From positions 1-64,000 of the IMG/VR virus record IMGVR_UViG_3300020027_000006: 64,000 nucleotides of DNA, one strand, 5' to 3'. The position numbers and the translations under genes were made by a program. The stretch is from a virus. Within the stretch, counting starts at the first letter, position 1. The number at the start of each line of letters is the position of its first letter. The notes under the pieces are model-generated. The model was not told where the DNA came from. It made no database searches and was given only the letters and a program-made list of their open reading frames with translations. Shown piece after piece: positions 604-56,649 of the stretch.

Positions 604-1785
604 TCACCAACTGCCGCTGCTTCCTCCTCCACCAAAGTCGCTGCCTCCGCTGAACCCACTGTCACTGCTTGAACTGCTTGAGTCGGAACTACTGGAACTG
701 CTTGAGGAGTAATAACTTTCTCGTCTTCGTTCTTCTTCACGCTCTTCACGTTCTTCACGCTCTCTTCTTTCTTCATCATATTTTTTCCTTTTACGCTCTT
801 GTTCAGCTAATTCTGCTTTACCTTCAGGAGATTCCGACCAAATACGATAACGTTCTGCTTCTATGTCAGCTAACCTTTTTTCTTCCAGTTGACGAGCTTT
901 CTCTTCTTTGACACGATTTTCTTCTTTGACACGATTTTCTTCTAATTTTTTAAGTCGTTTTGTCTCAGCTACTCCATCTGGAGTAAGCAACCAAATACGA
1001 TTCTCTTCTTCTTTTTTAAGTCTTAATACTTCAGCGTCTTTTCGAGCCGCCTCTGCTCGTTCTTTATCCTCACGCTTTGCTTCCGCTTGACTTAAGAATC
1101 TTTGCATTTCTATTGCTTCACGTGTCTTACGTTTATGCCTTGCTATCCCGTATAACCCAACACCCGATAAACCTAGCACTCCCATAACCCCTAAAAAACC
1201 AAACAATAAACCAGTATTGCTTTTGTTATCAGTAGAGGAGACAGAATAAGTATCAGGAGTAGGAGTCGCTATATTTTTCACAGTGACAGCCTCAACAGCA
1301 GAAATAGTAGAAAGAATAGCGTCACGCCAAGCATCAGATGTCCCAGTTTTACTAGCTATTTTAAGTTTTGGCACGAGTGTAGCACGACCAATCGACCCAG
1401 ATTGGCCATCTGTAATGACATACTCCATATGCCTACTTATTTGGAACGCCCATTTACGGTCATCGGTAGCCAGAAAAAGAAGTAGCCCACGTTTTTCCCC
1501 CTCTTTACTTCCAATGCCGTACTCTCTAGCCATTTTAAGACTATAATTGAAAGCTTCATAACTTCCCATAGTCTGAACAGTCGCAACCCCAAACTCCACG
1601 TTATATTTAAGTTTAAATTGATTTAACGTGTTTTGAATAATGGCTTCGTCGGCTTCATTCAAAACATTTGCATGGTCTTGAACAAAAGTGTTTGGCACAA
1701 CAGAAGGAATATTTTGTGCAGTTGCGGACAAAATACCGGAAGCCAGTAATATAAGAAACATTAAGCTGTAATTTATACGTGTCAT
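604..1785 (-). CDS. TPM-domain (YgcG-like) membrane protein
   Basis: 393 residues. Order: signal peptide (residues 1-23, cut near TAQ); TPM domain (about 28-160, 'FVQDHANVLNEADEAII' at its start); a membrane helix around 195-215; a long Lys/Glu/Arg-rich coiled-coil segment; and a Ser-rich then Gly-rich tail ending GGGGSSGSW, the usual end of YgcG-type proteins. TPM domains are linked to membrane protein maturation or acid phosphatase activity; the role in a phage is unclear. The ATG overlaps the stop of the upstream gene. Expected at the envelope. Confidence 0.85.
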   Translation of the reverse strand: MTRINYSLMFLILLASGILSATAQNIPSVVPNTFVQDHANVLNEADEAIIQNTLNQFKLKYNVEFGVATVQTMGSYEAFNYSLKMAREYGIGSKEGEKRGLLLFLATDDRKWAFQISRHMEYVITDGQSGSIGRATLVPKLKIASKTGTSDAWRDAILSTISAVEAVTVKNIATPTPDTYSVSSTDNKSNTGLLFGFLGVMGVLGLSGVGLYGIARHKRKTREAIEMQRFLSQAEAKREDKERAEAARKDAEVLRLKKEEENRIWLLTPDGVAETKRLKKLEENRVKEENRVKEEKARQLEEKRLADIEAERYRIWSESPEGKAELAEQERKRKKYDEERREREEREEREEERRRESYYSSSSSSSSDSSSSSSDSGFSGGSDFGGGGSSGSW

Positions 1786-2120
1786 TATTTACTCCAATCT
1801 AAAACTAACATTGCCTCATCAGAATTCAAGTTAATATGAGTATCAGAATCCATGTCAGATTCACATATACTAAGCAAAATTTCTGCTTCATTTCTACGTT
1901 TACCTGCATAATACTTCCAATCATTTTGATAACAGGAATTTTTAACTGTATACTCAGCTTCTTCATAAGTGAAATTCCTTCCAAAAAGGAAGTATCTTTT
2001 CTGAGACATCCAGTATTCTATATGATTTTCAAAAAGATGCCTTCTTTCGTCGTCTATACTGGATATACATTTCTTCATAGCCAGTATGACATTAGGTTTG
2101 TAAAAATTTACGGATGCCAT
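1785..2120 (-). CDS. Hypothetical protein, 111 aa
   Basis: Soluble, Cys- and Tyr-containing protein with no recognised domain. It overlaps both neighbours by start/stop codons, placing it in one unit with the TPM protein and the membrane proteins upstream. Confidence 0.65.
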   Translation of the reverse strand: MASVNFYKPNVILAMKKCISSIDDERRHLFENHIEYWMSQKRYFLFGRNFTYEEAEYTVKNSCYQNDWKYYAGKRRNEAEILLSICESDMDSDTHINLNSDEAMLVLDWSK

Positions 2121-2389
2121 TATTTAGTTTTTGAGGAAGATGCGGATAAGGAAGATGAGGTATAAGCAAATACAGCTGCTACAAGATGCACCCAAAACCA
2201 TCCTGTAAAACCCACTGTAGATGCAATAAGTATAAGTACCATAATACGAGGTATAAATATAGACAGAATAACGTCAACCACAAACGGAGTAGGGTTAAGA
2301 GGAACCATACTCTGCATGTATAGAACCAGAAGACTGATACGAGGCACAAACAAAGATGCCACAAGAAAAAGTGTAGTAAGTTCATTCAT
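2120..2389 (-). CDS. Small membrane protein, 89 aa
   Basis: Very hydrophobic with about three predicted membrane segments and a short Ser-rich tail. It follows another membrane-protein gene within five bases and overlaps the next start. Holin or other envelope roles are possible, but no family is recognised. Confidence 0.65.
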   Translation of the reverse strand: MNELTTLFLVASLFVPRISLLVLYMQSMVPLNPTPFVVDVILSIFIPRIMVLILIASTVGFTGWFWVHLVAAVFAYTSSSLSASSSKTK

Positions 2390-2393
2390 AATT

Positions 2394-2924
2394 TTATATT
2401 CTCCCCATATGACTCATGATAACAACTAACAGTATGGCTATTGTTATAATATTGTCTATTGGCTGCCAAATTTTGAATGTTTCAGACTCTATGCCAAATA
2501 TTTTCCCTAAAGCTGCGGTCAGAAAACTTAATCCAAACATAATTAAAAAATATTGATATTGAGGAGTAAATAACCCAAAAAACATCCAAACAAGATAACC
2601 TACAGAAAGAAATATAAGTGCTAGTCCTGCCAACACGCTTACTATACTTCCTGCAATAATTTCTTTAGCTTCTTTTTGTGAGTCTGATAATTCAAGAACA
2701 CGCTCTGCAAATTCTTTGGAACTTATTTCTTTTTCCGCAGGCACCTCATTTATTTTTGAGTCTATGACTTCCAGTTTCTCTTTAGCTACTTGTACTTTTC
2801 CTTCGAGTTCTTTAACATATTTATTAAAAAAAGATGATGGACGAAAGCCTAGCAATGCCATTACTTCAAGAAATAAAGGGAACACCGCAAACAAGAAAAA
2901 AAGGTTTATTAGAAAATTTTCCAT
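2394..2924 (-). CDS. Membrane protein with coiled-coil loop, 176 aa
   Basis: An N-terminal hydrophobic helix (about 3-25), then a Lys/Glu-rich coiled coil (about 37-88), then three further hydrophobic segments. First gene of an operon that continues with two other envelope proteins. The ATG lies six bases after a TAAGAT -10 box, so it should be leaderless. Function unknown. Confidence 0.75.
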   Translation of the reverse strand: MENFLINLFFLFAVFPLFLEVMALLGFRPSSFFNKYVKELEGKVQVAKEKLEVIDSKINEVPAEKEISSKEFAERVLELSDSQKEAKEIIAGSIVSVLAGLALIFLSVGYLVWMFFGLFTPQYQYFLIMFGLSFLTAALGKIFGIESETFKIWQPIDNIITIAILLVVIMSHMGRI

Positions 2925-2930
2925 GACATT

Positions 2931-2959
2931 ATCTTACCACAATGTCAATACCTTGTCAA
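2931..2959 (-). promoter_or_regulatory. Leftward promoter, leaderless
   Basis: TTGACA (2954-2959), 17-nt spacer, TAAGAT (2931-2936) on the minus strand; ATG at 2924. Confidence 0.75.
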
Positions 2960-2962
2960 GAG

Positions 2963-3187
2963 TTATTTTCTATCCTCTTGTAACACTAAACTACGTAATA
3001 AAAGAGTTGCTCGGCTTTCTAGCCACTTTAGATGTATTTTCGCTCTACAAGACAAGCAGTTAGTCGTGTCGTCTGTGACTTCTGACACTTCTTCAGGAAC
3101 TGGAGAGCAAACATAAGGTTTTTCACTGTATTCTGTTATTTTCTTAGTTGCTCCTTCTTCAATTGTCCAGTTTTCGTTGTTTTTCAT
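2963..3187 (-). CDS. Hypothetical protein with CxxC, 74 aa
   Basis: 74 residues with a 'CLSCRAKIHLKWL' segment that could bind one metal ion with other cysteines. Its start overlaps the stop of the 240-residue gene upstream. No family recognised. Confidence 0.6.
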   Translation of the reverse strand: MKNNENWTIEEGATKKITEYSEKPYVCSPVPEEVSEVTDDTTNCLSCRAKIHLKWLESRATLLLRSLVLQEDRK

Positions 3188-3906
3188 AGGTCTTTTATTT
3201 TTATAGGGTTGCGGAAGCTGTCTTTGTCAAAACCATGCTGCTGTATCTTATATTTGTCAGAAATTTCTAAAATTTCAGGTTCTTTGGCAAGTTGATTGCC
3301 TACATAAATAGATATTTCTTGAAAAGCAGAGTAAGAATCTTTAATTTTATAGAATTGAAACTCTTTAAGAAGAATATTTGTTCGTAAAGTTGTTTGTCTG
3401 CGGTTTATTTGCTCTTTAGTTATTTCAGGTATATCAGAGCTAGTTAAATATTCTTTACTTACTATAAATACAGGAGTATTATATTCTATAAAAGTTTTGT
3501 CATTTTTAAAATCCGAATATCTATCAAAAAATTGTTTGCTGCTGCTTTTACTACTATATCTTCTGTATGAATACTCTTTTTTAAACTGAGTTTTCCATGT
3601 TTTATAGTCTTTATAGTTATAAAAGAAGTACTCGCCTTCATTATCCTGACAATGAGCTAAAGGATACAATTGTCCGCAAAACCCTATTATATGAAAATCT
3701 GTAACAGGTTTAACGAGATTTCCGTTGGAGTCCCTATATGCTTGATAGTTATATCCGTTAGGAAAATCAAACTCTTGAGTACTGTTCCACGAACCAGTAT
3801 ATATAATAATATTTATACTTTCTGTACGATAAAAATGAAGTTCAGGGTCTATACCAAAAGAAACTGCACTGTCATAATAATCTCGTTCTTTACTGTATAT
3901 TTTCAT
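3184..3906 (-). CDS. Conserved-looking hypothetical protein, 240 aa
   Basis: Starts MKIYSKERDYYDSAVSFGID and contains 'DFHIIGFCGQLYPLAHC'. This opening resembles a group of uncharacterised phage proteins I recall beginning 'MKIYxKxxDYYD', but I cannot confirm it. Tyr- and Lys-rich, soluble, no catalytic motif recognised. It sits in an unbroken run of overlapping leftward genes. Confidence 0.7.
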   Translation of the reverse strand: MKIYSKERDYYDSAVSFGIDPELHFYRTESINIIIYTGSWNSTQEFDFPNGYNYQAYRDSNGNLVKPVTDFHIIGFCGQLYPLAHCQDNEGEYFFYNYKDYKTWKTQFKKEYSYRRYSSKSSSKQFFDRYSDFKNDKTFIEYNTPVFIVSKEYLTSSDIPEITKEQINRRQTTLRTNILLKEFQFYKIKDSYSAFQEISIYVGNQLAKEPEILEISDKYKIQQHGFDKDSFRNPIKIKDL

Positions 3907-3915
3907 ATTTTATTT

Positions 3916-4173
3916 TCAGACACAGAAACTCCAAGGATGTAGATACCAACAGTCTTTAGTATACTTATATTCTAGTTTCCAATCAAAAATTTCATTTAAC
4001 AGAACTATGACACGTGCTTTTGGTATCATTTTAAAATCATAAATATCCCAAGCAGTAGGAGGGTCAACAAATTCAACATACAATGACCAAGTTATTGCTA
4101 TGTATTCACATAACTCTCTGTCACTTAATTCTCCGCCAAATTCAAATATTTCTGCTCGTCGTTCATCCGTCAT
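3916..4173 (-). CDS. Hypothetical protein, 85 aa
   Basis: Trp-rich acidic protein without recognised domain. It overlaps the small membrane gene upstream by 11 bases. Confidence 0.6.
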   Translation of the reverse strand: MTDERRAEIFEFGGELSDRELCEYIAITWSLYVEFVDPPTAWDIYDFKMIPKARVIVLLNEIFDWKLEYKYTKDCWYLHPWSFCV

Positions 4174-4378
4174 TTTTATTATGTTTTTGCTCTCCTAGAG
4201 CAGCACCGATTAGTACAAAAACAGCTATTGTAACGATGCCTAAACCTTTTCTGTCCTCTTGCGTCCAACGAATAAAATATATTTCTCCTGTTACAAATGA
4301 AAGATACAGATAACCTATTACAAATACAATAAAAGGAAAAAAGAAGATGTCAAAATATGCTTTAAGAAATTTGTTCAT
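4163..4378 (-). CDS. Small membrane protein, 71 aa
   Basis: Two predicted membrane segments (about 7-29 and 47-62) and a charged C-terminus. The 67 bases upstream (4379-4445) encode no clear gene; an open frame starting at TTG overlaps this ATG as ATGA and may be a 25-residue leader or remnant. Confidence 0.65.
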   Translation of the reverse strand: MNKFLKAYFDIFFFPFIVFVIGYLYLSFVTGEIYFIRWTQEDRKGLGIVTIAVFVLIGAALGEQKHNKNDG

Positions 4379-4445
4379 TGATTTACCTCTTTATATCGGT
4401 CATAGCTGCCATAACAATCGTATTCTTTATAGCCGTCTGCGTTTA

Positions 4446-4790
4446 CTACCAAGAGATTGAATATTGTTGACAAGTGCGGATGTTGCCGTCTGTAATTTCT
4501 TCAAGGTCATTGAGATTGATAAGACGTTTTATTGAACCCCAGAACAGCTCAATTGCAGTGGTTTTATTTTTAGTAGAAAACGGAGGTCGGTACTCAATGA
4601 GTCCTATATTTAGACCACCAGCATCCCCTAAATAAACTTTATAACCGGCGTCACCAGTAAATTTATGTGGGTCTACATGTTTTTTAAAATCTGACAGGGT
4701 AGTTAGATTTTCACCATCATACAAACCTTTTTCAGTTAGTATGCTTTTGACTTTTCTAAGATGTGCATCAATTGCGAAATCGTTTTCCAT
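4446..4790 (-). CDS. Hypothetical protein, 114 aa
   Basis: Soluble protein without recognised domain. It overlaps the next gene upstream at 4790. Another frame continues past its stop with good coding character (NADGYKEYDCYGSYDRYK), so a small frameshift near 4450 that shortened the C-terminus is possible but unproven. Confidence 0.6.
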   Translation of the reverse strand: MENDFAIDAHLRKVKSILTEKGLYDGENLTTLSDFKKHVDPHKFTGDAGYKVYLGDAGGLNIGLIEYRPPFSTKNKTTAIELFWGSIKRLINLNDLEEITDGNIRTCQQYSISW

Positions 4791-5098
4791 TAATAACTCC
4801 AGTCTCCTCTCGTAAGTTTATATGTAGGATTACTACTCAACATAAATTTGCTTATCAGTGAGGTAAGAATTTTTCTTTCATCTTCGCGAAAGAGTTGTAA
4901 AAGAGTAGACTCCGCAGATTCTTGAATTACTTCATTCGGAGATAATACATTTTCATTTTTCAGTGCATTTTCATCTTTCAGCTTAACTAAGGCAGTAATA
5001 AACTCAACTATATTTTCTTCAGTTAGTTGATAACTAAGATTTTCACTGTTCACTTCTACTACAAATCGTTTTGTTACGTCTTTACTGTAATTTATCAT
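4790..5098 (-). CDS. Hypothetical protein, 102 aa
   Basis: Mostly helical, charged protein; no family recognised. Start overlaps the stop of the upstream gene (5095-5098). Confidence 0.6.
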   Translation of the reverse strand: MINYSKDVTKRFVVEVNSENLSYQLTEENIVEFITALVKLKDENALKNENVLSPNEVIQESAESTLLQLFREDERKILTSLISKFMLSSNPTYKLTRGDWSY

Positions 5099-43672: not shown

Positions 43673-44455
43673 ATGTCTAGTACAAAAACAATGAAACGCT
43701 CAAAAGAGCAACGTGAGTCTGATATGAATATACTGTCTAAAATGTATATTCGAAACAAATCTCAGATGGAGATAGGCCGTACACTTGGAATATCTCAAGG
43801 TCAGGTCTCCAATGACCTCAAAAAACTACTCAAACGTTGGGAAGATACTCGCCTTAACGATATAGACCAATATAAAGCAGAGCAATTACAACGAATCAAT
43901 CACATAGAAGGTGAAATGTGGACAGCTTGGGAGCTTAGTAAGACCAAAGGTAAGATAACTATATCTAAATCAAAATCAGGAGAAATGGTCAAAATGCTTG
44001 ACCCGTCGACCGGAAGAGAATTTAAGATGGACGATGACCGTTACTGGAAAGCAGGTGAAATCGAAGAGCTTCCAACTGGCGGGGGTGATATGCAATACAT
44101 GAACGGTATTATGTGGTGTGTACAAGAACGTTCTAAAATTATGGGACTTAATGCTCCTAAGAAAATTGCTGCTACTGACCCAACCGGTACAATAGAAGCA
44201 GGTCAATCTGCAAAAGAGATACTTGGGGATATAATAGGCGGAATTTTAAAACGAGCTGAAAAATCTGATAAAGAATTAATAGGAAGTAAACTTATGGAAA
44301 TCGGAGATAACAATGAGATTGATGTTAGCTCTGGCTCAGTTCTGGCTCAAAAAATAAGGGATGAAAAAATACGAAGACTTCCGCCTGCAAAAAACGCAGG
44401 TACATCTAGTACCGAAGAAAATAATTACATTGATGCGGAGATAATAGATGAGTAA
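43673..44455 (+). CDS. Terminase small subunit-like HTH protein, 260 aa
   Basis: N-terminal HTH: 'RNKSQMEIGRTLGISQGQVS' followed by 'NDLKKLLKRWEDTRLNDIDQ', then a helical middle and an acidic C-terminus. Position directly before the large terminase (eight-base overlap) and the HTH support the small-subunit role, binding phage DNA for packaging. Start could also be the ATG at 43691. Confidence 0.65.
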   Translation: MSSTKTMKRSKEQRESDMNILSKMYIRNKSQMEIGRTLGISQGQVSNDLKKLLKRWEDTRLNDIDQYKAEQLQRINHIEGEMWTAWELSKTKGKITISKSKSGEMVKMLDPSTGREFKMDDDRYWKAGEIEELPTGGGDMQYMNGIMWCVQERSKIMGLNAPKKIAATDPTGTIEAGQSAKEILGDIIGGILKRAEKSDKELIGSKLMEIGDNNEIDVSSGSVLAQKIRDEKIRRLPPAKNAGTSSTEENNYIDAEIIDE

Positions 44456-47400
44456 AGAAAAATCAGCAGGCATTGATACATATAATGTAGAAGGCAAAGA
44501 ATCTAAGGTTGCCAATTATACCCCTGAACCTGATGATAACAGAAGCATAATGGAAAAACTTGCTGACCTTAGTGTAGAAAATCCAGAAGCTTATAACGAA
44601 GCAATAGACGCATTAATAGCCGAAAAAGGTGAAGATTGGTTTAAGAATCTTCGTTATGATTGGTCTATAAACGGACGACCTAAACAGTTTCCTCCACAGC
44701 CTATGGAAAAGTGGAGAGCTTGGATTTGTTTGGCAGGTCGCGGATGGGGAAAAGATTTAAGTCCTTTAACCCCAATACTTACAGTCAATCGTGGATGGAT
44801 TACATTAGATAATATTTTAGTAGGAGATGTAGTATTTGATGAGCAAGGTTCTCATACTTCAGTTACAGCTGTTTATGATACGAATCCTGAAAAATGTTAT
44901 AGACTTCATTTTAGTGACGGCACTTGTATAGAGGCTGGAGAGGGACATGAATGGGTGACTTGGGACAGACAAGACCGCAAAGCATATAGAAGGTCTACAT
45001 ACGAGGACGCTAATTCTTTTCCAGAAGATTGGGTTAATTGGAAGGTAAAACGTGTAACTGCTCGTACTTGGCTTAATAAAGAAAAAGTAGAGTCTGCTTT
45101 AGAATTATCTAAGGCTGGTTTTAGTAATAGAAAAATAGCTCAAATAACAGGATTAGGGAGGCTTGCTTTGGCTAAACACATTAAAGCTGGGCGATTTATA
45201 GAAAAACCAGTTCATGAGTTTGGAAAAAACAGAGTAAAAACTTCACAGGAAATAGTAGAAACTCTTTATCATGAGTTAGCTGACGGAAGATTAGAAACTA
45301 ATCACTGTATTCCTAATACTCGACCGTTAAAGACGGAAAATAAAATTTTGCCTATTGACCCTTATTTATTTGGTATGTGGCTTGGTGACGGTTCTAAAGC
45401 TAGTGGGCAAATCGCTACTCATAAAGATGACCTGTCTAATTTAACCTGTGAGTTGGATAAATTAGGATACAAGTATTCAGAACATAAAGACTATATATTT
45501 AATGTTTACGGTTTAGTTACTCAACTTAAAGAGCTTGGAGTACATAAAAACAAACATATCCCTTCAGATTATTTGTCGTCTTCCATAGACCAGAGACTAT
45601 CTCTTCTGCAAGGTCTTATGGACAGTGATGGTACTGCTGATAAAGATGGCTCAAGATGTGAATTTAGTCAGAGTAATGAAACACTTGCAAAACAAGTGTA
45701 TACTTTAATCGTCTCGCTTGGTATGAGTGCTCATATGACCTCTCGAATTCCAATATTAAATGGGGAAGAGAAAAAAGAAAACTGGAGAATAAGATTTACT
45801 CCTAATCTTCCAGTTTTCAGACTTCCTAGAAAACTGGAAAGATTAGATTTTTCTAGGTCTCAAATATTAAAAAGATATTGCAGATACATAATTAAAGCAG
45901 AAGAAATTGTTCCAATTCCTATGCGTTGCATAACTGTAGATTCCCCTAATTCTTTATACTTGGCAGGTGACCAATTAATCCCTACTCATAATACCAAGAC
46001 AGGGGCAGAAACTACAAATATTTGGGTCAACACACATAAAAAAGGAACTCCACCTATACGTATAGCTCTTATTGGTGCAACTACTAGTGACTGTAACGCG
46101 GTCATGGTTTCTGGAAATTCTGGTATACTCAGTATTTATCCAGATAAAGAAAAACCTGACTGGATTTCAACCAACAGAAAAGTTATTTGGCGGTATCCTG
46201 ACGGAGAAGTAAAGGCTATTGCGGAATGTTTTGCTTTAGACATCAATACTGAGATACCCACACCCAAAGGGTTTAAACTTATGGGTGATATTACAGTTGG
46301 TGAACAAGTATTTGATGAAAAAGGTCTCCCTTGCAATGTAACTGCTGTAACTGATACAGGACTAGACCATAAATGTTTTGAAATAACGTTTAAAAATGGT
46401 CAAAAAATAACGGCTGATGCTGCACATCTATGGAAAATTTCTACAGCTTCGGATAGAGATAGTAGAGTTGATAAAAGCAGAATAGTGAATTCTCAGTGGA
46501 TTGCGGACAACTTTAGTGTTCCGCATAAGGGAAGAAAAAACGATTTAAATATTTGGGTCAAATTAACAGAACCTGTATTGTACGAAGAAAAAGAGCTGTC
46601 TATTGCACCATACGTTTTAGGTGTATGGCTTGGAGATGGTGCAAATAATAATAGTTCTTTTGTATCAGAAACTTCTGAGATTCCAGATTTCATATCATCT
46701 TTTGGTTATTCTGTAACAAAAACTAAAGCACCAATGCGTTACACAATTTGTGGTCTTATTACTCAGCTTAAAGAGTTTGGACTTTATAGAAATAAGCATA
46801 TACCTTCGATTTACAAGCAAGGGTCTATTGAGCAAAGAAAAGAACTATTGCGGGGATTGTTAGATACAGATGGTTTTGTATCAAAAAAAGGTGCGATTGT
46901 ATTCTCTAATACAAATGAAGATTTAGTTGATGGGGTGTGTGAAATAGTTTCCAGTCTTGGTGGATGGACAACAAAAAAATTACAAAACCCAAAAAAGAAT
47001 CTTCCTTATAATCAAAAACCTAGATGGAAGGTAGTTATTAGAGGGCTGTATGACCTTTTCAAACTTCCACGAAAACTGGAGAGAGTAATAATTAGAAGAG
47101 TGTCCACTGATTTGCCAGTAGTTTCACTTAAAGAAGTAGAACCAACACCAGTTAGATGTATAACAGTAGACTCATCAGAACATCTATTTCTTGCTACTAG
47201 AAGCTATATTGTGACCTCAAACAGTGCAGAGGAGCCTGAGCGTCTTCGAGGCCCACAATTTAATTATGCGTGGTGTTTGATTGGAGAAACTCCAGTGTTA
47301 ATGGAGAATTTTACAACCAAACCTTTGAAAGATATTAAAGAGGGAGAATATGTACGAACGAGAGACGGGGCTAAGAAAGTATTAGCTTCTTATCTTACCA

Positions 47401-49184
47401 AAGAAAATGCTGACTTGTATGAGTTACTTCTTATGGACGGAAGAGTTATTATAGGTACAGGTGAGCATCCTGTATATTTATCAGATTCAGGATTTACTCA
47501 ACTTCAAAATATTAAAGAGGGAGATTTTGTATTATGTGCAAGTCCTGTATCAAATTCGACGGAGGAGTTTATCATCTTAGAGGAAACTCTCCTTATTATC
47601 AAACAAGTATTAGACTTCATAGAGAGGTATGGAGATACCACAACGGAAGAATCCCAGAAGGACATCATATCCACCATAAAAACGAGGATAGAACAGATAA
47701 TTCAGTTGAAAATTTGGAGTGCCTCACAAAAGAAGAGCATTCAAGAATTCACGGAACTAAGCGATTTGCGGAGTTTAGAGAGCTGGCTGTTGCAAATTCA
47801 ATTAAATCTAGGGAGCACAATAGAAAAGAACTACTTAAAAGAATTTTATTATGTAAATTATGCGGAAAAGAGTTTAGCAGCGGGTCAAAACATCCAAGAC
47901 AACTATGCTCTCAAAAATGCATGGATGAACTTAGAAACACATCATACACAGGAGAATCCAGATTATGTGCTTTTTGCGGAGAAGAGTACACTACATCAAA
48001 AAATGCTCAAAAATATTGTTCCAAACTATGCAATAACAGAGTACATGCGGACAGAGCCAGTAAACTGGTTGCTAAAACAATTAAATGTGTTATTTGTAAA
48101 ATTGAATTCAATTCAAAACGATTCAATGCAAGATTTTGTAGCACAAAATGCTCTAAATCTATACGATATGAAAGTGGTAGGCGTAAAAAAATTAGCGAAG
48201 AAATCAGACGTTTATGATTTAACTATTGAGGACAGTCATGAGTTTTTTGCAAACGGTGTTCTTGTGCATAATTGTGATGAATTAGCTGCTTGGCGTTATC
48301 AGGCAGCATGGGATATGTTAATGTTTGGTCTTCGTTTAGGAGACAACCCACAGGTCATAGTGACTACTACTCCTAGACCTTTTCCTATTTTGCTCGATGT
48401 ACTTAAATTAAAGACCAGCTGGACAACAATAGGTACAACTTATGAGAATCGTTCTAACTTAGCCCCTGCTTTTTTTAGTGACATCATAAACAAATATGAG
48501 GATTCAGCACTTGGTCGTCAAGAATTAATGGCCGAAATAATTGAAGAAGTTCCAAACGCTATGTGGAATGAGAAAAACATTGAGGCTAACAGACGTGATT
48601 ATAGTGATATAATTAATCTTCCAGAAATGTTAAGTATGGTTATAGCTATTGACCCCGCAACTACTAGTAGAAGTGGTTCTGCAGAAACCGGTATGTGTGT
48701 AGCGGGTTATGGAGAAGATGACCATTTCTATATATATCATTTAGACGCAGTATCTATGCAGCCTGATAAATGGGCAACTCGTGCTCTCAATTTATTTGAG
48801 GACTATAACTGTGATAAATTAATAGCAGAGGTTAATAATGGAGGAGATTTAGTAGAAACAGTTATAAAATCTATTAATCCTATGCAAAAAGTATACCCTG
48901 TTTATGCATCTCGCGGTAAAATTACTCGTGCTGAACCTATTGCAGCTCTTTATGAGCAAAATCGTGTTCATCATATAGGAAGATTTTTAGAGGGTGAACG
49001 TCAAATGACTACATTTAATCCGCTAGAGAACCCTCACGGTCTTAAAGATATGGTAGACGCTTTGGTTTGGGCAGTCACTTGGCTGGTTAATACTACTCAA
49101 GGTAAAAATACTTTTAAACCGGCAGTTGGGGGTTCTCGCACAAAATTATCAAATTATAGAAAAATATTTAATACAGATTTTTAA
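44448..49184 (+). CDS. terL: Terminase large subunit with three inteins
   Basis: DNA-packaging ATPase-nuclease. The 1,578-residue frame contains about 502 residues of terminase. Removing three inteins restores 'LAGRGWGK|TKTGAE' (Walker A), 'CF|SAEEPERLRGP' and 'NYAW|CDELAAW' (Walker B), then an 'IVTTTPRP' coupling motif and a C-terminal nuclease region starting 'MVIAIDPATTS'. Two inteins thus sit in the ATPase motifs and one between them. Host junction residues after each intein are Thr, Ser and Cys, as needed. Starts ATG 44448 inside the upstream gene. Confidence 0.93.
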   Translation: MSKEKSAGIDTYNVEGKESKVANYTPEPDDNRSIMEKLADLSVENPEAYNEAIDALIAEKGEDWFKNLRYDWSINGRPKQFPPQPMEKWRAWICLAGRGWGKDLSPLTPILTVNRGWITLDNILVGDVVFDEQGSHTSVTAVYDTNPEKCYRLHFSDGTCIEAGEGHEWVTWDRQDRKAYRRSTYEDANSFPEDWVNWKVKRVTARTWLNKEKVESALELSKAGFSNRKIAQITGLGRLALAKHIKAGRFIEKPVHEFGKNRVKTSQEIVETLYHELADGRLETNHCIPNTRPLKTENKILPIDPYLFGMWLGDGSKASGQIATHKDDLSNLTCELDKLGYKYSEHKDYIFNVYGLVTQLKELGVHKNKHIPSDYLSSSIDQRLSLLQGLMDSDGTADKDGSRCEFSQSNETLAKQVYTLIVSLGMSAHMTSRIPILNGEEKKENWRIRFTPNLPVFRLPRKLERLDFSRSQILKRYCRYIIKAEEIVPIPMRCITVDSPNSLYLAGDQLIPTHNTKTGAETTNIWVNTHKKGTPPIRIALIGATTSDCNAVMVSGNSGILSIYPDKEKPDWISTNRKVIWRYPDGEVKAIAECFALDINTEIPTPKGFKLMGDITVGEQVFDEKGLPCNVTAVTDTGLDHKCFEITFKNGQKITADAAHLWKISTASDRDSRVDKSRIVNSQWIADNFSVPHKGRKNDLNIWVKLTEPVLYEEKELSIAPYVLGVWLGDGANNNSSFVSETSEIPDFISSFGYSVTKTKAPMRYTICGLITQLKEFGLYRNKHIPSIYKQGSIEQRKELLRGLLDTDGFVSKKGAIVFSNTNEDLVDGVCEIVSSLGGWTTKKLQNPKKNLPYNQKPRWKVVIRGLYDLFKLPRKLERVIIRRVSTDLPVVSLKEVEPTPVRCITVDSSEHLFLATRSYIVTSNSAEEPERLRGPQFNYAWCLIGETPVLMENFTTKPLKDIKEGEYVRTRDGAKKVLASYLTKENADLYELLLMDGRVIIGTGEHPVYLSDSGFTQLQNIKEGDFVLCASPVSNSTEEFIILEETLLIIKQVLDFIERYGDTTTEESQKDIISTIKTRIEQIIQLKIWSASQKKSIQEFTELSDLRSLESWLLQIQLNLGSTIEKNYLKEFYYVNYAEKSLAAGQNIQDNYALKNAWMNLETHHTQENPDYVLFAEKSTLHQKMLKNIVPNYAITEYMRTEPVNWLLKQLNVLFVKLNSIQNDSMQDFVAQNALNLYDMKVVGVKKLAKKSDVYDLTIEDSHEFFANGVLVHNCDELAAWRYQAAWDMLMFGLRLGDNPQVIVTTTPRPFPILLDVLKLKTSWTTIGTTYENRSNLAPAFFSDIINKYEDSALGRQELMAEIIEEVPNAMWNEKNIEANRRDYSDIINLPEMLSMVIAIDPATTSRSGSAETGMCVAGYGEDDHFYIYHLDAVSMQPDKWATRALNLFEDYNCDKLIAEVNNGGDLVETVIKSINPMQKVYPVYASRGKITRAEPIAALYEQNRVHHIGRFLEGERQMTTFNPLENPHGLKDMVDALVWAVTWLVNTTQGKNTFKPAVGGSRTKLSNYRKIFNTDF
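44754..45992 (+). mobile_element. Intein 1 in Walker A, class-3-like, LAGLIDADG
   Basis: 413 residues, from Asp (after GRGWGK) to THN before Thr. It lacks a Cys/Ser at position 1, but has the class 3 triad pattern: Trp in 'GEGHEWVTW', Cys in 'MRCITVDSPNSLYLA', Thr in 'LIPTHN'. The LAGLIDADG endonuclease is visible as 'LFGMWLGDGS' and 'LLQGLMDSDGTADKDG'. A helix-turn-helix segment ('ALELSKAGFSNRKIAQITGL') lies between the splicing and nuclease parts. Confidence 0.85.
46233..47222 (+). mobile_element. Intein 2, class-3-like with Ala1, LAGLIDADG
   Basis: 330 residues, from Ala (ALDINTEIPTPKGF) to VTSN before Ser. Class 3 residues: Trp in 'ADAAHLW', Cys in 'VRCITVDSSEHLFLA', Thr in 'IVTSN'. Endonuclease motifs 'VLGVWLGDGA' and 'LLRGLLDTDGFVS'. 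Related to intein 1 across its length. Confidence 0.87.
47274..48272 (+). mobile_element. Intein 3 in Walker B, class 1, with embedded frame-shifted HNH gene
   Basis: 333 residues, from Cys (CLIGETPVLMENF) to LVHN before Cys. Splicing blocks: 'GTGEHPVYL' (block B, Thr..His), 'VYDLTIEDSHEFFANGVLVHN' (blocks F and G). Between 'NIKEGDFVLCAS' and block F the frame carries about 210 residues with no known domain. In another phase the same DNA encodes a full HNH endonuclease. Confidence 0.9.
47534..48217 (+). CDS. HNH endonuclease nested out of frame in intein 3
   Basis: 227 residues in a different phase from terL. 'LHREVWRYHNGRIPEGHHIH' and 'HKNEDRTDNSVENLECLTKE' form a standard HNH_3 core; three Cys4 fingers follow (CKLC..CSQKC, CAFC..CSKLC, CVIC..CSTKC). 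The ATG has GAGGGAG about ten bases upstream, enough for independent translation. It starts right after the N-terminal splicing half and its stop lies inside block F, so intein and endonuclease share coding DNA in two phases. Probably the homing nuclease of this intein. Confidence 0.88.
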   Translation: MCKSCIKFDGGVYHLRGNSPYYQTSIRLHREVWRYHNGRIPEGHHIHHKNEDRTDNSVENLECLTKEEHSRIHGTKRFAEFRELAVANSIKSREHNRKELLKRILLCKLCGKEFSSGSKHPRQLCSQKCMDELRNTSYTGESRLCAFCGEEYTTSKNAQKYCSKLCNNRVHADRASKLVAKTIKCVICKIEFNSKRFNARFCSTKCSKSIRYESGRRKKISEEIRRL

Positions 49185-54123: not shown

Positions 54124-54990
54124 ATGATAGAAAGAGTATGTGGACATTGTAAAGTTCAAATCTTAATTAAACCTCATAAGGTAAAATCTATTAACTTTTG
54201 CAAAACAGTTTGTTTTAACGAGTATAGAAAAAGAAAGCCTAATGGTTTGAGTACAAAAATTAAAAAGCAATGCTTAAATTGCGGTAAAGATATTTTTGTT
54301 CGAAAAGCTGGAGCAGATAGAAAGAAATTCTGTAGCAGAGGCTGCCATGATATTTACCGTAAAGGAAGCAAAAGAGAGGCTTTTAGTGAAGAGCATAAGA
54401 AAAATATAAGTAAATCTGCAAGGACTAGAGTTCTAACAGATGATGGAAGAAGAAAAATAAGCGAAGCCAGAAAGAAACAGTACGTGGAAGGTAAAGCTCC
54501 TCAAATGTTTCAAAAAGGACATGAGGTTAAAGCTGAATGGAGAGAAGCGGGTAGGAAAGCAAATATTGGAAGTGCAAGGCATACTGTTCCTCATAGGGAA
54601 GAAACTAAGGAAAAGCTTAGACAGTTAAAACTCGGAACGAAACTTACTGAGGAAACAAAAGCTAAGTTAGCCATTTCTAAAGCTAGACAAGGAAAAAAGA
54701 AGGGGTTTACTTACATTGAGAAACTTCTTTACGGTTATTTAGATAATAATTTAATCGTTTATGAAAAACAACATCCTTTAGGTAGTTTTGTGGCTGATGC
54801 TTTTATACAACATAAGTTATTAGTTATTGAGGCAGATGGAACTTATTGGCACTCTACTCCGAGAGGTATAGAGACTGGCTTAAGAAAGGATAAATTTATA
54901 GAATCTTTGGGATTACGAATGATTCGAATACCTGAAGTAGATTTTAACAATGGAAAATACATTAAGACTTTGAATGATTTATTCTTGTAA
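54124..54990 (+). CDS. Vsr-like homing endonuclease with zinc fingers, 288 aa
   Basis: Two N-terminal Cys4 fingers (CGHC..CKTVC; CLNC..CSRGC), then a region rich in short DNA-binding modules ('FSEEHKKNISKSAR', 'LTEETKAKLAISKA', NUMOD-like), then a Vsr-type nuclease: 'LGSFVADAFIQHKLLVIEAD' and 'KFIESLGLRMIRIPE' with Asp, Glu and His. Fingers resemble those of the intein HNH. Inserted between virion genes. Confidence 0.82.
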   Translation: MIERVCGHCKVQILIKPHKVKSINFCKTVCFNEYRKRKPNGLSTKIKKQCLNCGKDIFVRKAGADRKKFCSRGCHDIYRKGSKREAFSEEHKKNISKSARTRVLTDDGRRKISEARKKQYVEGKAPQMFQKGHEVKAEWREAGRKANIGSARHTVPHREETKEKLRQLKLGTKLTEETKAKLAISKARQGKKKGFTYIEKLLYGYLDNNLIVYEKQHPLGSFVADAFIQHKLLVIEADGTYWHSTPRGIETGLRKDKFIESLGLRMIRIPEVDFNNGKYIKTLNDLFL

Positions 54991-55716: not shown

Positions 55717-56649
55717 ATGGGTAAATGGAAAATAGACGATGAACTGGTTTCAAACCAAACTCTTTATATGAGAGAGTGGTCTGAAACCAAAAATGGTAAA
55801 GCGTATAAAGAACGGCATAAAGATTATGCAAAGCAGTGGAGATTAGATAATAGAGATAAAGCCAAAGCTATTCAAAAGCGTTCTATGTACGAAGCGAGAA
55901 TGGAAGTTTTACAGCATTATTCAGGTTTAGAAACGCCAGAGTGTAAATGCTGTAAAGAACAGATGTTTGAATTTCTCCAAATAGACCATATTGAGGGTAA
56001 TGGTGCAGGACATAGAAGAAGTATTGGAATGGCTCAAGGTGACTTGAATCAAGTAGCTAAACAAAAAGAACGTGGTAAAATTTCTTTGGGCGGTAATGGT
56101 TTTATCTATTGGCTAAAGAAGAATAATTTTCCAGAGGGGTTTCAAGTGCTTTGTGCTAATTGTAACTTGGGAAAACGTACCAATAAGTACTGCCCGCATG
56201 AGATACAAAATGGTATGGATATGTATGGAAACACAATAGCCGTGCAGAAAGAAGAATTCCCAGAATTAACTCGTCGTAGACGTGGTGAGGCACAAAAAGA
56301 AGCTGATGAATTGGGAGTTAATGTTTCGACTTTGCGGATGAGAAGATGGACAGAAAAGCAAAGATTATTAAACCCTAAACCAGAAAAAATTAAGTTAGAG
56401 CCTACTGCTTGTGGTAAAGGACATGTATTTCCTGAGAATTTATACCAAAGAGAGGGAGATAATAGACGCTACTGTAAGCAGTGTAAAAGGGACTCAAAAG
56501 CTAGAAGAAAAGAGTGTGATACGCTATTAAATTCTGAGTTGTTTGATGATAATGAAGAGAATCAACATCATTGTGGAGGGTTTTGTAACTGTACTTTTTG
56601 TATGGACGAGGTAAATGGTGTTTCGTTGATAAACTCCGCAACCTCATAA
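55717..56649 (+). CDS. HNH endonuclease, 310 aa
   Basis: Lys/Arg-rich helical N-terminus, HNH core 'CKCCKEQMFEFLQIDHIEGN' with 'FQVLCANCNLGKR', then a long C-terminal extension with further Cys pairs (KHCxxC-like: YCKQCKR, CGGFCNCTFC) and an HTH-like 'ADELGVNVSTLRMRRW'. Own promoter, flanked by terminators: typical inserted homing gene. Confidence 0.82.
   Translation: MGKWKIDDELVSNQTLYMREWSETKNGKAYKERHKDYAKQWRLDNRDKAKAIQKRSMYEARMEVLQHYSGLETPECKCCKEQMFEFLQIDHIEGNGAGHRRSIGMAQGDLNQVAKQKERGKISLGGNGFIYWLKKNNFPEGFQVLCANCNLGKRTNKYCPHEIQNGMDMYGNTIAVQKEEFPELTRRRRGEAQKEADELGVNVSTLRMRRWTEKQRLLNPKPEKIKLEPTACGKGHVFPENLYQREGDNRRYCKQCKRDSKARRKECDTLLNSELFDDNEENQHHCGGFCNCTFCMDEVNGVSLINSATS

Follow-up and report, generated by a model that had tools for sequence, protein, structure and literature searches.

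The terminase gene and its three inteins

We analysed the first 64,000 bases (the window) of a 75,244-base virus record, which hold a terminase gene, terL, interrupted by three inteins (Table 1). The exteins of its product match the Pfam families Terminase_6C (2e-9) and Terminase_6N (4e-8), and the product of the neighbouring upstream gene has a Sigma70_r4-like helix-turn-helix match (1.4e-4, below the Pfam cut-off).

Table 1. Positions of the features at the terL locus of the window and of comparable features in other phages.
Feature	Record	Positions	Strand	Description
Probable terminase small subunit	window	43673-44455	+	N-terminal helix-turn-helix; directly upstream of terL
terL ORF	window	44448-49184	+	single ORF; 1578-aa precursor, 502 aa without the three inteins
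Intein 1	window	44754-45992	+	assigned to class 3; Asp1; 413 aa; P-loop GK/T site; LAGLIDADG (DOD) endonuclease domain
Helix-turn-helix-like insert of intein 1	window	45060-45230 (approximate)	+	aligned insert common to the P-loop inteins of L017, L018 and L019
Intein 2	window	46233-47222	+	assigned to class 3; 330 aa; Ala1 and Ser+1; Ser in place of the penultimate His; DOD endonuclease domain
Intein 3	window	47274-48272	+	class 1 (Cys1, His-Asn, Cys+1); 333 aa; splits Walker B at W/CDE
HNH_3 endonuclease ORF	window	47534-48217	+	227 aa; +2 frame with respect to terL; lies entirely within intein 3
TerL class 1 intein with +2-frame HNH	MT838676 (L009)	3955-4908
TerL class 1 intein with +2-frame HNH	Tetrasphaera phage TJE1 (L012)	2615-3568
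TerL class 1 intein with +2-frame HNH	Acinetobacter phage Highwayman (L099)	900-3182
TerL class 1 intein with +2-frame HNH	Rhodobacteraceae phage LS06-2018-MD07 (L100)	1041-3089
Class 3 P-loop intein	L035	4995-6062
Class 1 mini-intein	L035	6327-6725		133 aa; at W/CDE

The junctions (marked by a slash here and below) are GRGWGK/DLSPLTPIL...LIPTHN/TKTGAE for intein 1, AECF/ALDINTEIPTP...YIVTSN/SAEEPERLRG for intein 2, and NYAW/CLIGETPV...VLVHN/CDELAAW for intein 3. They are fixed by homology to TerL relatives with empty sites. The second and third sites are empty in the TerL proteins of L026, L094, L020, L027, L017 and L018; that of L026 reads YSAAAPSQLRGPQHDAAWCDELAAW, and in L059 the protein's own P-loop intein is followed by TKTGAE and then by SGANPEQLRGPQHEKAWCDEIFAW without interruption. 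Excision of all three inteins restores a terminase that agrees with its uninterrupted relatives.

An earlier note on this DNA had described two class 3-like inteins over the range 44754-47222, which also takes in the C-extein piece between them (45993-46232). It had named a Cys- or Ser-starting junction restoring the terminase equally well as evidence against its reading; we looked for such junctions at inteins 1 and 2, and with none of the candidates is an intact Walker A or LRGPQF stretch regained. Its statement that all three inteins are situated in or near ATPase motifs also holds: Walker A is interrupted by intein 1 and Walker B by intein 3, and intein 2 lies within a conserved segment, 18 residues ahead of the cysteine of Walker B. 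TerL inteins at the Lys/Thr P-loop and at Walker B, class 3 inteins included, were already known (PMC5050341).

Intein 3 and its overlapping HNH reading frame

Intein 3 has a match to Pfam Intein_splicing (4.3e-16) and carries the features of class 1, namely Cys1, TxxH in block B, the terminal His-Asn, Cys+1 and the HINT fold. The pLDDT of its model is about 97 for residues 1-90 and approximately 300-333, and about 28-73 over most of the linker, where the model of the intein frame is unreliable.

The HNH reading frame overlapping this intein is absent from the earlier note. Its product matches Pfam HNH_3 (2e-18) and HNH families of PHROGs, retains intact HNH and zinc motifs, and has zinc-finger-like CxxC pairs at the C-terminus; a purine-rich GGGAG sits 10 nt before the ATG. 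The open frame, the domain match and the start region indicate that this ORF is most likely translated. The ORF overlaps the C-terminal splicing block of the intein by approximately 20 codons (up to 48217), and this stretch would be doubly coding. The terL frame contains no stops across the HNH ORF, versus about 5.6 expected when synonymous HNH codons are shuffled (p ~1e-4).

Two further ORFs downstream in the window, at 54124-54990 and 55717-56649, have weak HNH or homing endonuclease matches.

The same layout in other phages

Four deposited phages have a +2-frame HNH in a TerL class 1 intein (Table 1). In a scan of viral contigs with an HNH alignment as the query, 80 loci were kept (L103-L182). 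Single-protein scans of viral contigs with the HNH protein or with the C-terminal extein of TerL gave no relative, whereas the HNH alignment did; a two-sequence intein alignment yielded 3 loci only. In 49 of the 80 loci the HNH is spanned by an ORF in another frame, with the HNH in frame +2 in all but one of these (48 of 49), and in most of the 49 the intein N and C blocks are in the host frame. The intein of one of the 80 loci (L103) occupies W/CDE, the same site as intein 3.

The distribution of substitutions over codon positions shows that the HNH frame is constrained in related contigs. In the pair L112/L122, the host ORF upstream of the HNH has 46, 33 and 234 changes at codon positions 1, 2 and 3, respectively. 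Inside the HNH the counts are 39, 27 and 87 in the HNH frame, corresponding to 27, 86 and 40 in the host frame. Of seven other contig pairs, five have a distinct peak at the wobble position of the HNH frame, and in L179/L111 and L111/L162 the peak is weak. Fisher combination of the stop-free probabilities over loci is biased, since the loci were chosen for being open, and the weight was put instead on the p value of the window, the codon-position contrast and the uniform +2 frame.

The HNH ORF of intein 3 could, alternatively, be an untranslated remnant, the intein frame alone being in use. Such a reading draws on the GC-rich L012 and L100, where the chance of an open second frame is 0.2-0.3. 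It is at odds with the strong HNH_3 match and the intact HNH and zinc motifs, with the fall of substitutions on HNH wobble positions in the related contigs, with the recurrence of one and the same frame in the spanning loci, and with the stop-free intein frame in the window; hence we consider a remnant quite unlikely. Rather, intein 3 likely represents a widespread, undescribed architecture, in which a cis-splicing class 1 intein takes its homing endonuclease from an overlapping +2 frame of the linker.

Several of the other 31 loci have the HNH and the two parts of the intein (N and C) in different frames. In eight of the loci (L105, L116, L119, L125, L126, L131, L140 and L164) the N block, the HNH and the C block share no single frame, and these mixed-frame loci look like split or fractured inteins made up of the same components. 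In contig L117, a single ORF (1165-4398) contains the intein N and C blocks twice over, along with two HNH matches in the +2 frame.

Class assignment of inteins 1 and 2

Class 3 inteins are characterized by TrpB:12, CysF:4, ThrG:5 and Ser or Thr at position +1, with no nucleophile required at residue 1 (PMC5222942). The earlier note had described inteins 1 and 2 as devoid of a position-1 nucleophile but having the Trp/Cys/Thr pattern, and all these residues are indeed present. At the homology-fixed junctions, position 1 is Asp in intein 1 and Ala in intein 2. TrpB:12 is present in both (HEW in intein 1, HLW in intein 2), as is CysF:4, within RCITVDS; ThrG:5 and the Thr or Ser at +1 are seen in PTHN/T of intein 1 and VTSN/S of intein 2. 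The set is complete in both, and in intein 1 the residues are H65, W67, C392, T411, N413 and Thr+1.

In the alignment to class 3 inteins that the note had proposed as a check, these positions match those of class 3 DnaB inteins one to one, and the Cys of RCITVDS aligns with the Cys of PVRCVEVDN, which is the catalytic Cys of 6rix. Searches of the PDB, whether with a profile or with a single sequence, place the class 3 DnaB inteins 6rix, 6riy and 6bs8 on top, 6rix being the best solved relative of intein 2 (2.5e-19). The AlphaFold2 model of intein 1 is confident (pLDDT 93.2, pTM 0.88); in Foldseek, PI-SceI matches it over the whole length, as a two-domain intein, while the splicing domain matches 6riy, 6rix and 6bs8 with an rmsd of 1.5 over 70 aligned columns. 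The kinship with known class 3 inteins is that of nearest solved relatives, the trees below covering inteins with the class 3 signature.

Among 91 full-length inteins, the majority of them from viral contigs, HisB:10, CysF:4, ThrG:5 and the terminal Asn are present in 91 of 91, and TrpB:12 in 90; the +1 residue is Thr in 49 and Ser in 42. The sequence tests, this census and the closest solved structures support the assignment of inteins 1 and 2 to class 3, and hence they add members to an already known class. One viral contig (L083) has two class 3 inteins in different reading frames.

Both inteins contain endonuclease domains, with Pfam matches to LAGLIDADG_3 (8.5e-8) and Hom_end (7e-6) in intein 1 and to LAGLIDADG_3 (1.8e-6) in intein 2. 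The LAGLIDADG motifs are LFGMWLGDG and LLQGLMDSDG in the former, VLGVWLGDG and LLRGLLDTDG in the latter, and the acidic residues are kept in both. The insert of intein 1 is situated within the endonuclease part and is modelled as three helices (H109-120, H125-132 and H136-145); it is probably a DNA-recognition module, and may bear on the activity of the intein.

The penultimate His, usual in class 3 but not defining, is present in intein 1 and replaced by Ser in intein 2. Of 144 class 3 inteins with a strict junction call, only 3 do not have it, and a penultimate Ser occurs among the 91 full-length inteins only in intein 2 and in L019b, both of which retain the block F His. In intein 2 this His (SSEHLFLA) may cover the missing one; a penultimate Ser is rare in class 3, and splicing of intein 2 could be slow or impaired.

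Aspartate at position 1

In the 144 class 3 inteins with the strict junction call, position 1 is usually Ala (n = 94), followed by Leu (n = 16), Gly (n = 8), Pro (n = 7), Met (n = 6), Gln (n = 4), Glu (n = 3), Asp (n = 3), Arg (n = 2) and Phe (n = 1), and it is never Cys, Ser or Thr. The three with Asp1 are full-length inteins other than intein 1, and all of them occupy P-loop sites. Under a looser call, Asp1 occurs in 5 of the 91 full-length inteins, intein 1 included; the Cys1 and Ser1 counts of that call are junction mis-calls (L061, L096).

The Asp1 of intein 1, which the earlier note had considered unusual, is thus uncommon but not new: in the deposited TerL of Clavibacter phage CMP1 (L004), an intein in the same position of the P-loop also begins with Asp, reading GK/DLDVNTPLPTP...MIPTHN/T. 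Since position 1 is non-catalytic in class 3, Asp1 is a variation and not a mechanistic novelty, and the two inteins suggest that this position tolerates Asp.

Relationship between inteins 1 and 2

Inteins 1 and 2 both have the class 3 architecture and are alike over their full length, from which the earlier note had suggested that one of them spread to a second place within the gene. The likeness is true but weak: their identity is 36-37%, which does not exceed that of either to inteins from unrelated phages, whereas intein 1 is up to 45% identical to the intein at the same P-loop site in another TerL (L017). In the tree of 91 rows, intein 1 falls among the LAGRG-GK inteins found at the TerL P-loop in other phages (SH-aLRT 93), three of which share its helix-turn-helix-like insert. 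Intein 2 is devoid of this insert and pairs in the same tree with L019b, which is the second of two class 3 inteins in another TerL (support 95, both branches long).

In the 30-row tree neither placement is resolved, the nearest neighbours of intein 1 being unchanged, and a forced clade of inteins 1 and 2 is not rejected by the AU test on this set (p-AU 0.345). This is compatible with the descent of one intein from the other within the gene, in either direction, but the identities, the neighbours in the larger tree and the distribution of the insert run counter to it, and we regard such an invasion as very unlikely. A recent copy within terL is unlikely because the two inteins are divergent, while an ancient one is simply unsupported.

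Proposed splicing and homing

Splicing of these inteins and its chemistry, as well as cutting and homing, are inferred from the conserved residues and domains. In inteins 1 and 2, CysF:4 (C392 of intein 1, in RCITVDS) would attack the peptide bond preceding position 1, assisted by HisB:10 and TrpB:12, yielding an internal branched thioester. The acyl group would then move to Thr+1 in intein 1 or Ser+1 in intein 2, and cyclisation of the terminal Asn would be accompanied by joining of the exteins; residue 1, Asp or Ala, would have no chemical part. The LAGLIDADG endonucleases would cut intein-free terL alleles, so spreading each intein. For intein 3, splicing by the class 1 pathway is expected; this intein would most likely owe its mobility to the HNH endonuclease, made from a separate start codon in the +2 frame of the linker.

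That inteins 1 and 2 are instead decaying class 1 inteins that have lost Cys1 and do not splice, TerL being inactive or coming from another phage, is highly improbable: class 3 inteins that are pseudogenes have been described (Arth_1007; PMC3196547) and intein 2 has no penultimate His, but all other catalytic residues are intact in both, including CysF:4 and HisB:10, which are missing in Arth_1007, the entire 4.7-kb gene is open, and the class 3 signature is common to the 91 inteins. We have high confidence in the reading of inteins 1 and 2 as separately acquired, full-length class 3 inteins initiated by CysF:4, and of intein 3 as a class 1 intein that most likely owes its mobility to the +2-frame HNH.

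Comparison with known systems

The TerL intein of phage CMP1 (GQ241246), like other phage TerL P-loop inteins (the TerL1-a site of PMC5050341), resembles intein 1 in the Lys/Thr Walker A site, the Trp/Cys/Thr set and the DOD endonuclease, and that of CMP1 also has Asp1 and Thr+1. The CMP1 intein is approximately 32% identical to intein 1 and has no helix-turn-helix insert, and no second intein was seen in the CMP1 TerL ORF, unlike the window terL. The class 3 DnaB inteins of Mycobacterium (MchDnaB1, 6RIX; Msm DnaB-1, 6BS8) have the same splicing fold and one-to-one alignment of the Trp/Cys/Thr residues; they are, however, mini-inteins without an endonuclease, unlike inteins 1 and 2, and MchDnaB1 has Ala1. 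The TerL of L019 (IMGVR_UViG_3300031224_000027) has two class 3 inteins, the first at the P-loop and the second near Walker B; the second has a penultimate Ser and ends in TSN like intein 2. This second intein is situated at RGPQF/THSW, 13 codons downstream of the intein 2 site, and the position-1 residues of the L019 inteins are Phe and Arg. Inteins 1 to 3 suggest that one essential gene can hold two class 3 inteins and one class 1 intein, with parallels in L019 and L035.

For intein 3, the known precedents are ShiLan and a Pacc40 element, in which an HNH is inserted out of frame and splicing blocks are absent (PMC11855218). In ShiLan, similarly to intein 3, the HNH is in another frame and the frame of the host gene is open, but ShiLan is not thought to splice (PMC11855218), while in intein 3 a complete class 1 splicing domain flanks the HNH. 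An interpretation of intein 3 as a ShiLan-type insertion fails, as splicing blocks are present in the host frame. Our literature searches found no out-of-frame endonuclease in a splicing-competent intein, although priority is uncertain, as a 2025 preprint on actinobacteriophage inteins of 'non-canonical architecture' lay outside these searches.

If the +2-frame HNH is expressed and active, inteins can carry homing endonucleases without in-frame fusion, and the splicing domain of intein 3 and the HNH enzyme would be two separate proteins from the same DNA. In many phage terminase inteins the endonuclease would then have escaped surveys that rely on in-frame domains, and a route would be suggested by which inteins gain new endonucleases and by which split inteins with intervening nucleases arise.

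Fractured genes with split inteins and an endonuclease between the halves were reportedly described by Dassa et al. in 2009. As in intein 3, the endonuclease gene in these occupies the endonuclease position of the intein and is read separately; unlike them, intein 3 is one continuous cis polypeptide, overlapped rather than split by the HNH. It is possible that an intein with a +2-frame HNH is a step between the inteins with in-frame endonucleases and the fractured, split-intein genes.
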